Below, piece after piece: positions 9,923 to 14,829 of a stretch of 64,000 nucleotides of DNA. The DNA is from Mariprofundus sp. KV (GTDB lineage Bacteria; Pseudomonadota; Zetaproteobacteria; Mariprofundales; Mariprofundaceae): the NCBI RefSeq assembly GCF_013387475.1, contig NZ_VWNB01000005.1:124001-188000 (forward strand). Reading direction: 5' to 3'. The notes below the pieces were generated by a model. It worked only from the letters and a program-made list of their open reading frames with translations, searched no databases and was not told the origin of the DNA. Numbering within the stretch: position 1 is the stretch's first letter; each line of letters begins with the position of its first letter. Made by a program: the position numbers and the translations under genes.

Positions 9923-12900
9923 ATGAAAAGCATTATCGCCTTTTTCGTTAAACGCGGAGTTCTGGTCAACCTCATCTCCGTCATTCTACTGCTGGGCGGC
10001 ATCTACTCGGCCATGCAGATGCAGCGCGAGGCATTTCCGAGCATCAATTTCGATGTGATAGCCGTATCCGGTGCCTATCCGGGTGCAGCGCCGCGTGAAG
10101 TGGAGCGCCTGATGGTGGCTCCGATTGAGCAGGAGTTAAAAGGCATTGATGGCATCAATGTCATCCGCTCCACCGCTTATTCGGGCACCATGCAGATCAC
10201 CATCGAGGTTGATCCGAACTTTGAGGATCGCTCCAGGCTTGTCTCTGACATCCAGCAGGCGATCAACCGTGCAGATCTGCCTGTCGATCTGCCTGCCGAC
10301 CCGATGATCATGGAGGTGAAGTCTGAACAGACACCTGTGCTCACCTTCTCCATCTTCGGTGACTTCGAACCGCTGGCATTGAAACACCTCAGTGCCAAGA
10401 TTGAAGATGATGTGCGTGATATTCATGGCGTTGCCAACGTCTTTGTTCAGGGCGACCGCAAGGAGGAGATCCGCATCGTCCCTGATCCTGAGAAGATGCG
10501 TCGCAGCCGTATCTCCATCCACGATATCATGGCTCTGGTCAGAGGCTGGAATATCAATGCGCCCGGTGGACGCCTGAAAGCAACCGATGGTCAAAGCATT
10601 ATCCGCATCACCGGTGAATTTCTCTCGGCTGAGGATGCAGGCAATCTGGTACTGCGGGCCAATGAACGCGGTCAGGCGCTCTATCTGAAAGATGTGGCAG
10701 AGGTGACCGAAACACTGGAGAGGCCTTATCGCTACGTGGCAGCCAGAGGCGACCCGGCCATCACCATGATTGTGATCAAAAAAGGGGATGCAGATATCAT
10801 CACACTGGTCGACAAGGTTCGTGCCTATCTCGACACCATCCCGCAAAAATATGGTGAAGAGGTGCATGTCAGCGCCTATAACGATTTCTCCACAATCACC
10901 CGGCTCCGACTCGGTGTACTGACCAGCAACGGCACCATCGGACTGGCACTGGTTCTGGTAATGCTGATGCTCTTCCTGCGTCCTGCTGTGGCTCTGACCA
11001 CTGCATGGGGTCTGCCGATCATCTTCTTTGCCGGTATCGGCCTGCTCTATGCAATGGGTATCACCCTCAATCTACTGGTGATGTTCGGCTTTATTATGGT
11101 GCTCGGTCTGATGGTCGATGATGCCATTATTATAGGAGAAAATGCCACCTACCATATGGAGCGTGGCCTCTCCCCCGAACAGGCCGCCATTGAAGGAACC
11201 TACGAACTGATGGGGCCGGTAACCGCAACCGTACTCACCACTATCGTAGCCTTTATGCCTCTGCTGTTTATGGATGGCATTATCGGTAAGTTTATTGCCA
11301 ACATCCCGCTGGTCGTGGTGATCCTGCTCGCCTTCTCGTGGTTTGAAGCGATCTTTATTCTACCCAACCATATTCGCGATGTTGCCAACGCCAACAAACA
11401 CCCTAAAGAGCGGGTGCTGTTTATCTGGATTACCGCTGCCTACACCTGGTTGCTGGAAAAAGCGGTAAGACTTCGCTACCTGACCATTCTGATCACCATT
11501 GCAGCTCTACTCGGAAGCTTCGCTCTGGCAGGCACCATGAAGTTCCAGCTCTTCCCCTCCGGAGCCGAGAGCACATTCTACCTTCGCGTCACCATGCCAA
11601 CAGGCACCACACTCGAAGAGATGCGAGACAACCTGAAAAAACTCGATAGCGAGGTTCGTAAGCGCATTGATCCGGCCCTCTTGGAAACCACCACGATGAT
11701 CGCTGGCGAGAATAGTGCCGACCAGCGCGAAGCGCTCAAGCAGATCGGTGATCGCTTCGGCTTTGAACGCATCATCCTGATTCCATTTACCGAACGTACT
11801 GTAAAAGCGCACGATGTGATGAGCGTACTGAAAAGTGAAATCCCCCCTCTCTTCCCTAAACTGGATATCAGTTTTGCCATGGAGAGTCCCGGCCCTCCGG
11901 TAGGACGCGCTCTGCAGGTTGAGTTAACCGGTGGTGATGAAGCGACCATGACCAGAGTTGCCAAACGGCTGGTTGCGCAACTGCAGACCATCAAGGGTGT
12001 CTATGCCGTAGAGAGTGACCTTGAACCGGGAGATCCGGAGGTTCGGATTGTCATGGATCGCAAACTTGCCGCCTATGCCGGAGTTGACCTGGCCACCGCA
12101 AGCACCCATATCCGTGCCGCATTTGACGGATTGCGCGTCTCCACCATCAAACGTGGCAAAGAGGAGATTGATGTCACCATTCGCTACCCTGAACAGGCAC
12201 AGCGCGACATTAACACCCTGATGAAGCTTGAGATCCCCAATCAGCGCGGCGGCCTTATTCCCCTGCACAGGATTGCCCATCTGGAGAGCAGAGAGGGGAC
12301 AAGCAGTATTCGTCACAAAGATGCCCGGCGTGTGATCAATGTCTCAGCCGAAGTGGACAAGAAAAACATGACCTCAAAAGAGCTCAACGCGATTGTCCTG
12401 CAAAGCCGAGAGCAGTGGCTTGCAGATGATGCAGAGGCAGTGCATGTAAATCTTGGTGGAGAGGAGGAGAAAACGCAGGAGTCTGTACGCGGGCTCGCAT
12501 TCAGCTTCCTGTTTGCACTGCTTGGTATCTTTGCCATTCTGGCCGTGCAGTTTAACCGTGTTGGTTATCCAATCCTTGTCATGCTGGCGATCCCGTTCGG
12601 CGTCATCGGTATTGTCGCTGGCTTTTTCCTGCATGGTGCCCCCCTCTCATTCATGGCCATGATGGGTTTTGTGGCATTGACAGGCGTGGTGGTCAACTCA
12701 TCGCTGGTGATGGCAGTGTTTATTCAGCGCCAGATCAATGATGGCGTCCCCTGGCGCAATGCAATTATGGAGAGCGGCAGACGGCGTCTGCGTGCAGTAC
12801 TTCTTACCGCCATCACCACTGTTGTGGGTTTGTTGCCAACAGCCTACGGCTGGGGAGGACACGATCCATTTGTTGCACCGATGGCCCTGGCACTCTCCTG

Positions 12901-13018
12901 GGGACTGATGTTCTCCACAGTGATCACACTCTTCTCCGTACCTGCCGCACTGGGGATTGCTCTGGATATCAAACAGAAAACGGAGCAGCTACTGGGCAAA
13001 GAGGTGACGGTAAAGTAA
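9923..13018 (+). CDS. RND efflux transporter (AcrB/MdtB-like permease)
   Basis: A 1031-residue inner membrane proton-driven pump with the usual 12 membrane segments and two large periplasmic loops. N-terminal MKSIIAFFVKRGVLVNLISV is typical of the hydrophobe/amphiphile exporter class. The conserved Asp pair of TM4 is seen in GLMVDDAIIIGEN (about residue 400), and repeat two has the matching GFVALTGVVVNSSLVM. It is immediately downstream of the TolC-type gene. RND pumps normally need a membrane fusion protein, which is missing here, so the pump either borrows one or works differently. The substrate cannot be read from sequence. Confidence 0.95.
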   Translation: MKSIIAFFVKRGVLVNLISVILLLGGIYSAMQMQREAFPSINFDVIAVSGAYPGAAPREVERLMVAPIEQELKGIDGINVIRSTAYSGTMQITIEVDPNFEDRSRLVSDIQQAINRADLPVDLPADPMIMEVKSEQTPVLTFSIFGDFEPLALKHLSAKIEDDVRDIHGVANVFVQGDRKEEIRIVPDPEKMRRSRISIHDIMALVRGWNINAPGGRLKATDGQSIIRITGEFLSAEDAGNLVLRANERGQALYLKDVAEVTETLERPYRYVAARGDPAITMIVIKKGDADIITLVDKVRAYLDTIPQKYGEEVHVSAYNDFSTITRLRLGVLTSNGTIGLALVLVMLMLFLRPAVALTTAWGLPIIFFAGIGLLYAMGITLNLLVMFGFIMVLGLMVDDAIIIGENATYHMERGLSPEQAAIEGTYELMGPVTATVLTTIVAFMPLLFMDGIIGKFIANIPLVVVILLAFSWFEAIFILPNHIRDVANANKHPKERVLFIWITAAYTWLLEKAVRLRYLTILITIAALLGSFALAGTMKFQLFPSGAESTFYLRVTMPTGTTLEEMRDNLKKLDSEVRKRIDPALLETTTMIAGENSADQREALKQIGDRFGFERIILIPFTERTVKAHDVMSVLKSEIPPLFPKLDISFAMESPGPPVGRALQVELTGGDEATMTRVAKRLVAQLQTIKGVYAVESDLEPGDPEVRIVMDRKLAAYAGVDLATASTHIRAAFDGLRVSTIKRGKEEIDVTIRYPEQAQRDINTLMKLEIPNQRGGLIPLHRIAHLESREGTSSIRHKDARRVINVSAEVDKKNMTSKELNAIVLQSREQWLADDAEAVHVNLGGEEEKTQESVRGLAFSFLFALLGIFAILAVQFNRVGYPILVMLAIPFGVIGIVAGFFLHGAPLSFMAMMGFVALTGVVVNSSLVMAVFIQRQINDGVPWRNAIMESGRRRLRAVLLTAITTVVGLLPTAYGWGGHDPFVAPMALALSWGLMFSTVITLFSVPAALGIALDIKQKTEQLLGKEVTVK

Positions 13019-13064
13019 TATCACAGAACAGCTTGAACATGTGGCACTGTAAATACCCGAGCGT

Positions 13065-13094
13065 TTTACTTGTGTATTCTAAATGTTTTTTAAT
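13065..13094 (+). promoter_or_regulatory. Possible sigma70 promoter for the first small RNA
   Basis: TTTACT (13065-13070) and TTTAAT (13089-13094) with an 18-base spacer are four- and five-of-six matches to -35 and -10. The first RNA could instead be processed from the 3' end of the efflux transcript. Confidence 0.35.
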
Positions 13095-13100
13095 GCCCTG

Positions 13101-13217
13101 TTCACCGCTCCATCATTGCATCCATGCATAGTTCGTCCTGTCTGGTGTCACCCTCCCCTCCCTCCCCGGCATCAGACACCCTCTATTAGAAAAGGCCCCG
13201 CATCAGCGGGGCCTTTT
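13101..13217 (+). ncRNA. Candidate small RNA A with C-rich loop
   Basis: Non-coding stretch after the RND gene ending in a strong terminator. A nine-base stem TGTCTGGTG (13139-13147) / CATCAGACA (13170-13178) presents a 22-base loop composed almost only of C and T (13148-13169). Twelve bases later comes the terminator GGCCCCGC-ATCA-GCGGGGCC plus T-run. The start is a guess from the weak promoter. The C-rich loop could pair with G-rich ribosome binding sites, as in known anti-SD small RNAs; that is inference. The paralogous element B follows. Confidence 0.55.
13190..13217 (+). terminator. Rho-independent terminator (small RNA A / RND operon)
   Basis: Stem AAGGCCCCGC with ATCA loop and GCGGGGCCTT, flanked by an A-run and followed by TTTTTT. 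Strong on the plus strand and weaker on the minus strand. Confidence 0.92.
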
Positions 13218-13286
13218 TTCGTTAGCTAAACATAAAAATTTTGCTTTTCACAAGAGGGGCGGGAGATGTCACAGGCATGACGTAAA

Positions 13287-13304
13287 TTGGCCTTATACTT
13301 GCTT
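13287..13304 (+). promoter_or_regulatory. Sigma54-type (-24/-12) promoter for small RNA B
   Basis: TTGGCCTTATACTTGCTT has the diagnostic GG (13289-13290) and GC (13301-13302) exactly ten bases apart, within TTGGC and TTGC blocks. An interrupted palindrome GTCA-N6-TGAC (13268-13281) lies just upstream. The predicted start is about 13313. An overlapping TATACT could also act as a sigma70 -10, but no good -35 accompanies it. Confidence 0.55.
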
Positions 13305-13312
13305 AGTCGGTT

Positions 13313-13410
13313 ACAGCCAAATGACAGCAATAGATTCGGCCCATCCATCTTTCCCCACTTCCCCACAATGGGTCGGATCTAAAAAGGCCCTGCATACGCA
13401 GGGCCTTTTT
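13313..13410 (+). ncRNA. Candidate small RNA B with C-rich loop, paralogue of A
   Basis: About 97 bases from the predicted sigma54 start to the terminator. A 12-base fully paired stem (two G-U pairs) GATTCGGCCCAT (13333-13344) / ATGGGTCGGATC (13368-13379) holds a 23-base loop containing TTCCCCAC twice. The terminator follows directly and is nearly the same as that of element A, pointing to a tandem duplication with diverged loops. No SD-preceded reading frame fits. Function unknown; loop pairing with G-rich mRNA leaders is inferred. Confidence 0.6.
13381..13410. terminator. Bidirectional terminator (small RNA B and CPA1 antiporter)
   Basis: AAAAAGGCCCTGC-ATAC-GCAGGGCCTTTTT, perfect stem with A-run and T-run on either side, so it works from both strands. 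It ends 30 bases from the stop of the minus-strand antiporter gene. Confidence 0.92.
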
Positions 13411-13440
13411 ACTATTACAGCGTTCTAAAGAGAGATCGGT

Positions 13441-14829
13441 TTAATGATGACCGCCTTCCTCTTCCAGCTCTCTGGCAAAGATGGCGCTGTTTTTACCGAT
13501 AATACCAAGCAGAATGAATGAGTAGATGAAGGTGGAGAGCATAATCACACCCACCACAATCGCTGTGAACATCTCCATATGCTCAAAGGTAGAGGGGATC
13601 ATCATCAGCATAACGATAGAGAGACCACCTTTGATTCCGGCAAAGGTGAGCACACCCCACCAGCGGAAATTCACATTGGTCATCTTATCGGTGCGATTGG
13701 TAATAAAGGCGAACTTGGCCATCATCGCCGCACGAATCACCGTTGTAGCCAGGAACATCACCATAATTTCGGTTTTATATTTCAGCAGCAGATCCATATC
13801 GATCATCTCTGCCATGGCGATAAATAGCATGGTATTGGCAACAATGGCCAGCAGCTGCACATCCTCTTTGGTGCGCATATGGCGATCACGCTCCTCGACT
13901 GTCGCCTTGATGGTCTGAATGGCAGTATGAATCAGTGAACGTGAAGTTTTCTCTGATACAGATTCACGCTCCAGCGCCTCCTCCTCCTGCTCAAGACGTT
14001 TATCATCATCAACCACAGATTTGGATAGAATATGGTGCACGGTCACTGTAGCAAAAATACAGGCCAGAATACCGGAGAGATGCATATGTGAGTGACCACC
14101 GAAGAGGTTCAGAAGCACATAGAAGTGCTCTGAGATCTCAAATGCGCCGTAACCGGTCAGAATCAGGATCAGCAGTTCAGCAATACGATTATCGGTTGTC
14201 TTCATCGCCATCAGACCGATATAACCGATCAGCACACCCAGCACAGCCGATCCACCAACCACCACCAGCGAGGTTTGGGCCACATAACCGGCTGTGATCT
14301 CGCCGCCATCAAGTGCATAGAGTCCGATAAATACAAATACAATCAGGGCTGTTGCATCATTAAACAGGCTCTCACCCTCACAGAGGATTTTAAGGCGATG
14401 AGGCAGCTCAAATTTGGAGAAGATACTAACCACGGAGACAGGGTCGGTAGCCAGCACCATGGCAAATAACATAATAATCGCAGCTGTGGAGAGGTTGTAC
14501 TGACCAAACAGTGAATCACCAATCAACAGGGCGGTCACCACCGAGAAAGAGACAGCTACTACAGCCAGATAGAAGAGGCTCAGCCCGTGCTCCTTGAGAT
14601 CCTCCACCTTCAACTCCAGTGAATCCCCAATCAGCAGGATAGGTAGTAACAAAATCACCAGTGCAGCAAAATGTTCAGCATCACCGGTGAGCATAAACAG
14701 GTCACCGAAAATAAGGTGGAACACAAAACTCAGGGCAATCAGCCCAACCGGAGAGGGTATTTTCATCTTATCCTCAAGCTGTAACGCCAGATAGAGAATG
14801 GCGGCAATCGACAGTACTGTAATAATCAT
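13441..14829 (-). CDS. CPA1-family cation:proton antiporter
   Basis: A 462-residue Na+(or K+)/H+ exchanger of the inner membrane with about 12 membrane segments. The CPA1 hallmarks are present: LATDPVSVVSIF and GESLFNDATALIVFVF, whose Asp residues bind the cation, and the later ...FAGIKGGLSIVM segment. A hydrophilic charged stretch near 275-320 (many Glu/Lys/Asp, EEEALERESVSEKTSRS) interrupts the membrane region and ends up in the cytoplasm, which may be a regulatory insertion. Single gene, with a shared terminator downstream. Likely role: pH and Na+ homeostasis. Confidence 0.93.
   Translation of the reverse strand: MIITVLSIAAILYLALQLEDKMKIPSPVGLIALSFVFHLIFGDLFMLTGDAEHFAALVILLLPILLIGDSLELKVEDLKEHGLSLFYLAVVAVSFSVVTALLIGDSLFGQYNLSTAAIIMLFAMVLATDPVSVVSIFSKFELPHRLKILCEGESLFNDATALIVFVFIGLYALDGGEITAGYVAQTSLVVVGGSAVLGVLIGYIGLMAMKTTDNRIAELLILILTGYGAFEISEHFYVLLNLFGGHSHMHLSGILACIFATVTVHHILSKSVVDDDKRLEQEEEALERESVSEKTSRSLIHTAIQTIKATVEERDRHMRTKEDVQLLAIVANTMLFIAMAEMIDMDLLLKYKTEIMVMFLATTVIRAAMMAKFAFITNRTDKMTNVNFRWWGVLTFAGIKGGLSIVMLMMIPSTFEHMEMFTAIVVGVIMLSTFIYSFILLGIIGKNSAIFARELEEEGGHH

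Follow-up and report, generated by a model that had tools for sequence, protein, structure and literature searches.

What do the 422 bases between an RND gene and a CPA1-type antiporter gene of Mariprofundus sp. KV encode? The window that we analysed (the whole stretch of 64,000 nucleotides) carries the RND gene, with the Pfam domain ACR_tran, and on the opposite strand the antiporter gene, with the domain Na_H_Exchanger and its closest named match in M. micogutta (89%). Between them lie two plus-strand units, each consisting of a hairpin with a C-rich loop and then an intrinsic terminator. A first-pass annotation had described the gap in this way, and we found the same length for it and confirm that both hairpins are real.

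Two hairpin units in one gap

The features on which the argument is built are the following.

9923-13018, plus strand: RND gene
13019-13440: gap of 422 bases between the RND and CPA1 genes
13139-13178, plus strand: hairpin of element A, with an 11-bp stem (13139-13149 with 13168-13178), from the fold
13150-13167, plus strand: loop of A, 18 nt, ACCCTCCCCTCCCTCCCC (loop sequence also given as ACCCUCCCCUCCCUCCCC)
13190-13219, plus strand: intrinsic terminator of A, from the fold; four terminator pairs with two-sided changes
13331-13381, plus strand: hairpin of element B, with a 14-bp stem (13331-13344 with 13368-13381), from the fold
13345-13367, plus strand: loop of B, 23 nt, CCAUCUUUCCCCACUUCCCCACA, which contains TTCCCCAC twice
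13382-13410, plus strand: intrinsic terminator of B, from the fold; its AAAAGGCCCTGC stem is kept in seven genomes
13441-14829, minus strand: CPA1-type antiporter gene

Folded alone, A has a z-score of -6.35 and B one of -6.82, and in neither case was any of 200 dinucleotide shuffles as good. The dimensions given by the first-pass annotation (stems of 9-12 bp, loops of 22-23 nt) need adjustment: the elements are there and the loop length is right for B, but the stems measure 11 bp in A and 14 bp in B, and the loop of A has 18 nt. The conserved unit also reaches upstream of the annotated start, with the promoter of A beginning at about 13080. The terminator of A is predicted to be able to act on the minus strand too, and that of B may likewise be bidirectional, so that it could also stop CPA1 transcription coming from the minus strand.

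The terminator sequence common to A and B is real but not specific, since the pattern AAAGGCYCYGC..GCRGRGCCTTT also lies 3' of two unrelated loci (C11:68374 and C25:15646). Because these loci carry the same terminator, likeness of terminators does not prove a duplication, and we reject the argument by which A and B had been presented as duplicates. B is a long-standing sibling beside CPA1, not a recent copy of A.

Conservation, coding strand and siblings

BLAST against 61 relatives showed unit A in most members of the genus and also outside it, in other genera. In an alignment of 19 A-type sequences the stem TGTCTGGTGTC / GGCATCAGACA is invariant or covaries. Over the whole A structure 97.9% of cells pair and eight pairs show two-sided changes, counts that are inflated by the relatedness of the sequences; shuffled controls gave a mean of 2.7 such pairs and never reached eight (0/500), and pairing falls to 37-53% when the partners are slid. 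For the stem of A taken by itself the figures are 98.6% of stem cells paired and three pairs with two-sided changes, with 32 G-U and three unpaired among 209 cells. The stem of B is paired in all cells of five sequences, two pairs having two-sided changes (AU/CG and CG/AU exchanges). Where the first-pass annotation had allowed for relatives without a conserved stem or loop, we thus find stems that are conserved and covary, in favour of the finding.

The same G-U cells settle the strand, since they would be A-C mismatches on the minus strand: the RNA of A is a plus-strand RNA. One could imagine that the sequence acts at the level of DNA, as a G-quadruplex/i-motif or cruciform, or as a minus-strand RNA, and in the genome studied here loop A does, on its minus strand, fit G3+N1 four times. 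However, relatives such as G013 and G033 do not keep four C runs of at least three bases, and the promoter and terminator indicate the plus strand. The non-conservation and the 32 G-U pairs lead us to reject a G-quadruplex or a minus-strand RNA, and we regard explanations of this kind as extremely improbable.

To follow the unit further we used R1, a covariance model built on A, whose E-values are rough owing to a short calibration. At E<=0.05 it matched 75 of 78 Zetaproteobacteria, some of these matches being plain terminators. At E<=1e-5 a phylum-wide search gave 64 of the 78 and, outside the class, one of 221 other Pseudomonadota (G101); this proved to be two terminators without a C-rich loop, which we dismiss as a false match. 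None of 4227 Rfam models matched the window at its gathering cut-off, the best small-RNA match being SorX with 27.7 bits against a cut-off of 46.6. We therefore reject a known Rfam family, in agreement with the earlier statement that no named family has this form.

Nor is A part of either neighbour, since it is retained without CPA1 in G008 and lies away from RND in G006, G011 and G013. In genus g4 there are two or three copies of A in tandem. At G071:C15:46875-47292 three A-type units follow one another, and none lacks a half-site array or a terminator of its own; the regions upstream of the second and third are nearly identical, so that these two are probably recent tandem duplicates.

The first-pass annotation had proposed a tandem pair of siblings with C-rich loops. 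Siblings they are, but of a family with at least six units in this genome (A, B, C, D, F and I) rather than two. Outside the gap these are, with two weaker candidates:

C28:95179-95261, minus strand: sibling C
C24:189742-189819, minus strand: sibling D, 1.7 kb past the end of the window
C25:94109-94209, minus strand: sibling F
C25:91102-91165, minus strand: sibling I
C21:37037-37112, minus strand: weaker candidate E
C6:1073-1138, minus strand: weaker candidate H

R1 matches under about 35 bits in this genome are mostly plain terminators, F and H being the exceptions. A search of the 2.53-Mb genome for the 11-mer CTCCCCTCCCT gave exactly five copies, one in each of the loops of A, C, D, F and I, and B is related to these five by position and form. 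C, D and F have the 16-mer CCTCCCTCCCCTCCCT unchanged in their loops but not the same inner stems or terminators, a pattern to be expected of RNAs in which the loop does the work. Several related candidate RNAs per genome with a common C-rich loop are a feature of the functional class considered below, and this genome shows it. D lies downstream of pta, and in three genomes (this one, G001 and G012) it has pta on one side and the same 184-aa gene on the other, which indicates that the copies occupy stable positions and do not behave as mobile repeats.

Two further observations concern these surroundings. A sigma-54-like site, TTGGCATTGCTATTGCT (C24:189687-189703), lies 3' of the D terminator and before a class III adenylate/guanylate cyclase gene; in G012 no such gene was seen in the interval from D to the gene that follows. 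At C4:18299-18312 of this genome (G000), on the minus strand, there is a long hairpin with a CTCTCCCCCCCTCCCTAT loop and a GTTAGCAGGGTTTT/AAAATTCTGCTGAC stem, without an obvious terminator.

Could all this be nothing more than a double terminator of the RND gene, or a set of dispersed REP-like repeats, with no regulatory RNA involved? A lies 120 bases 3' of RND, and both the several copies per genome and the tandem arrays of genus g4 would suit such an idea. Yet every main-type copy has its own promoter signature, the loci are stable, the stems differ among the siblings and A occurs without RND, and we find this explanation very improbable. Judged by sequence comparison, A and B are members of a previously unnamed, Zetaproteobacteria-wide family of small-RNA genes, whose transcription is predicted.

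Predicted promoters of A and its siblings, and a possible origin of B

Upstream of the two hairpins we recognise signals of different kinds.

13080-13115, plus strand: half-site array of A, four half-sites at 11-bp spacing, predicted OmpR/PhoB-type activator sites
13080-13084, 13090-13094, 13101-13105 and 13113-13115, plus strand: the half-sites TAAAT, TTAAT, TTCAC and TCA
13127-13132, plus strand: -10 element CATAGT of A; columns -12 to -7 are conserved across the family
13287-13303, plus strand: sigma-54 promoter of B, TTGGCCTTATACTTGCT, a -24/-12 element of the form GG-N10-GC
13314-13330, plus strand: predicted 5' leader of transcript B, placed from the promoter position

In a gap-free alignment of 53 non-redundant upstream regions, anchored at the first stem base, half-sites TTMAY recur at -59, -48, -37 and -26, that is in 11-bp steps, and are followed by a TAnnGT element at -12 to -7. 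The position of this -10 element places the RNA start at the stem, so that transcription of A is predicted to begin at about 13139. A consensus scan of the plus strand of the gap showed no sigma-70 promoter with a -35 box. OmpR/PhoB-family response regulators typically bind 11-bp direct repeats that stand where a -35 box would be, and the A-type promoter resembles an activator-dependent promoter of this type, an assignment made from the 11-bp spacing alone.

The signature can also be seen within this genome. When its five paralogues are compared, 18 of 66 upstream columns reach at least 4/5 identity, against a mean of 4.8 and a maximum of 14 in shuffles, though independent random slides of the five regions gave 18 columns in 2 of 2000 trials. 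With the promoter matrix A, which was in the training set, scores 41.8, and nothing else in the window exceeds 5.5. Of the other siblings C reaches 46.8 and I 42.0; D and F score lower, with 26.9 and 4.9. The 11-bp array is common to A, C and I, and in D and F the repeats stand one base further upstream; it is missing from B, E and H, the region upstream of B scoring -14.2.

A and B thus stand under different types of predicted promoter, activator-like direct repeats versus sigma-54. The site of B, which predicts a +1 at about 13314, is conserved in G001, G020, G016 and G002, hence in five genomes with this one. The rpoN gene is present in this genome, where the sigma-54 pattern has 51 matches against 15 for the reversed control. 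The matches to YTGGCN7TTGCW are strand-imbalanced on the contigs (40 on the reverse and 11 on the forward strand; control 8 and 7).

Behind the sigma-54 site three of the four other genomes have a small ORF, and in two of them B forms the 3' end. These two, G020 and G002, have A followed by the sigma-54 site, the small ORF, B and CPA1, the ORF occupying the region of the B leader. In G016 the promoter and the ORF lie 3' of A on another contig, apart from B; in G019 both look broken in the assembly and the ORF is pseudogene-like. The product is hydrophobic, 75-82 aa long, and starts MQAYLKIEESYATQ (loci G020:C15:52772-53017, G002:C42:46668-46892, G016:C42 and G022:C409). No sigma-54 promoter was seen at the ORF of G022, and no Pfam family reached its cut-off with the protein of G020 or G016. 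Our genome and G001 lack the ORF, and in them the sigma-54 promoter stands about 30 bases before the B hairpin. From this comparison we infer as the simplest history that B once formed the 3' end of a sigma-54-dependent mRNA and would have become a stand-alone RNA after loss of the ORF.

It might be objected that A alone is a small RNA and that B is a functionless relic, the 3' untranslated hairpin and terminator of that mRNA. This fits with B ending the small-ORF transcript in G020 and G002, and with the separation of promoter and ORF from B in G016. But in the two genomes that lack the ORF the promoter, stem and loop of B are almost unchanged while the A-B spacer has diverged, and the stem of B covaries. 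We consider a mere relic quite unlikely.

Proposed function and relation to known small RNAs

The loops contain CCUCC-type runs, like the tail of 16S rRNA, CCUCC being the anti-Shine-Dalgarno core; the loop of B, with its two copies of TTCCCCAC, is less anti-Shine-Dalgarno-like than that of A. We think it probable that A and B are Hfq-independent sibling anti-Shine-Dalgarno small RNAs of the Zetaproteobacteria-wide family, most of them switched by an activator, with B under sigma-54. The transcripts would run from about 13139 to 13219 (A) and from about 13314 to 13410 (B), the siblings being about 80-95 nt long. Each RNA would form one stable hairpin exposing a C-rich single-stranded loop, followed by the intrinsic terminator, and the loop would act as a diffusible copy of the anti-Shine-Dalgarno tail of 16S rRNA. 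By pairing with the G-rich ribosome-binding sites of several mRNAs it would lower their translation without Hfq. Most siblings would be switched together by a single OmpR/PhoB-type activator bound to the 11-bp array, and placing B under sigma-54 would make the same kind of loop respond to a second signal.

No Hfq was found with PF17209 at E<=0.001 in this genome, rated 99.95% complete, so that the action would have to be Hfq-independent. As to targets, the duplexes of loop A with translation starts in the window have a mean energy of -9.0 kcal/mol against -5.3 for random coding sequence, a comparison that is biased because Shine-Dalgarno strength had served to select the starts and because any RNA rich in C would do well in it. 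These in-window energies identified no specific conserved target of loop A.

A different role is conceivable for the same loops, namely that of protein decoys which titrate a pyrimidine-tract protein (e.g. Rho, S1 or a cold-shock protein) without pairing to any mRNA. A binding site for a protein would tolerate a pure C/T loop of variable length, the dose would rise with the number of siblings, and loop B retains its C runs, not the exact sequence. Decoys, however, have less need of sequence identity, whereas the 16-nt core is the same in three paralogues and the anti-Shine-Dalgarno core recurs. We hold decoys to be unlikely and prefer the anti-Shine-Dalgarno reading.

The nearest parallels are the cuckoo/alpha-r14 (NfeR1)/CcsR RNAs of Alphaproteobacteria, multicopy RNAs with a C-rich anti-Shine-Dalgarno motif in hairpin loops (PMC10746234, PMC10253847, PMC7143759). 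As far as they are described, these also have several copies, variable stems and a conserved promoter stretch; Hfq-independent action is reported for NfeR1 (PMC10746234), and CcsR adjoin a small-protein gene. The features of cuckoo are taken here from citing papers, and it is by those descriptions that we set our family apart. Many relatives carry the cuckoo-like CCUCCUCCC in loop A, with slightly varied flanks in several (e.g. G013, G019, G033), but in the window neither loop A nor loop B has its exact form. Alpha-r14 has three hairpins with the motif in each (PMC10746234), whereas here there is one C-loop hairpin plus terminator per RNA; unlike CcsR of the CIN1 locus, neither A nor B has a DUF1127 gene beside it, and the small protein is without a Pfam match. 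No covariance-model match with a C-rich loop lies outside Zetaproteobacteria. Since the three-hairpin layout and the DUF1127 link are missing, we reject membership in the cuckoo/CcsR group as those papers describe it.

NmsRA and NmsRB of Neisseria are also tandem siblings between two genes, with UC-rich anti-Shine-Dalgarno regions, but they have three stem-loops, two such regions and 70% sibling identity (PMC5362039), whereas here each RNA has a single hairpin before its terminator, and the siblings, at six loci or more, have diverged and differ in promoter. The csRNAs under CiaR and Qrr under LuxO (PMC4211561) show dispersed and tandem siblings under one response regulator, as predicted here; they belong to other lineages with other sequences, and our family has one sibling with a promoter of another class. 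GsrN of Caulobacter (PMC5869019) pairs through a C-rich 5' loop but has a second exposed pairing region, and SisA-D (PMC12559287) pair through a common anti-Shine-Dalgarno 10-mer but lack a common promoter motif, which A, C, D and I possess. By analogy, the best reading is that the family would work like cuckoo/alpha-r14, NmsR and GsrN and be a member of none.

Zetaproteobacteria are a main lineage of marine iron oxidisers, and a literature search on their small RNAs found no relevant paper. A class-wide small-RNA family with a common promoter signature would offer a first post-transcriptional regulon to test in them, and would add a case of anti-Shine-Dalgarno sibling RNAs that probably work without Hfq. 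Across species, the A-B locus would also present intermediate stages of a small RNA changing its promoter class. We propose only tentatively, as a possibility that may well fail, the full picture of an Hfq-less class with at least five siblings that mimic the 16S tail and are co-switched by a single response regulator, one sibling having been moved to sigma-54 by deletion of the small ORF from an mRNA that already had the C-loop hairpin at its 3' end. If true, it would make visible a stepwise route from the 3' end of an mRNA to a stand-alone small RNA.
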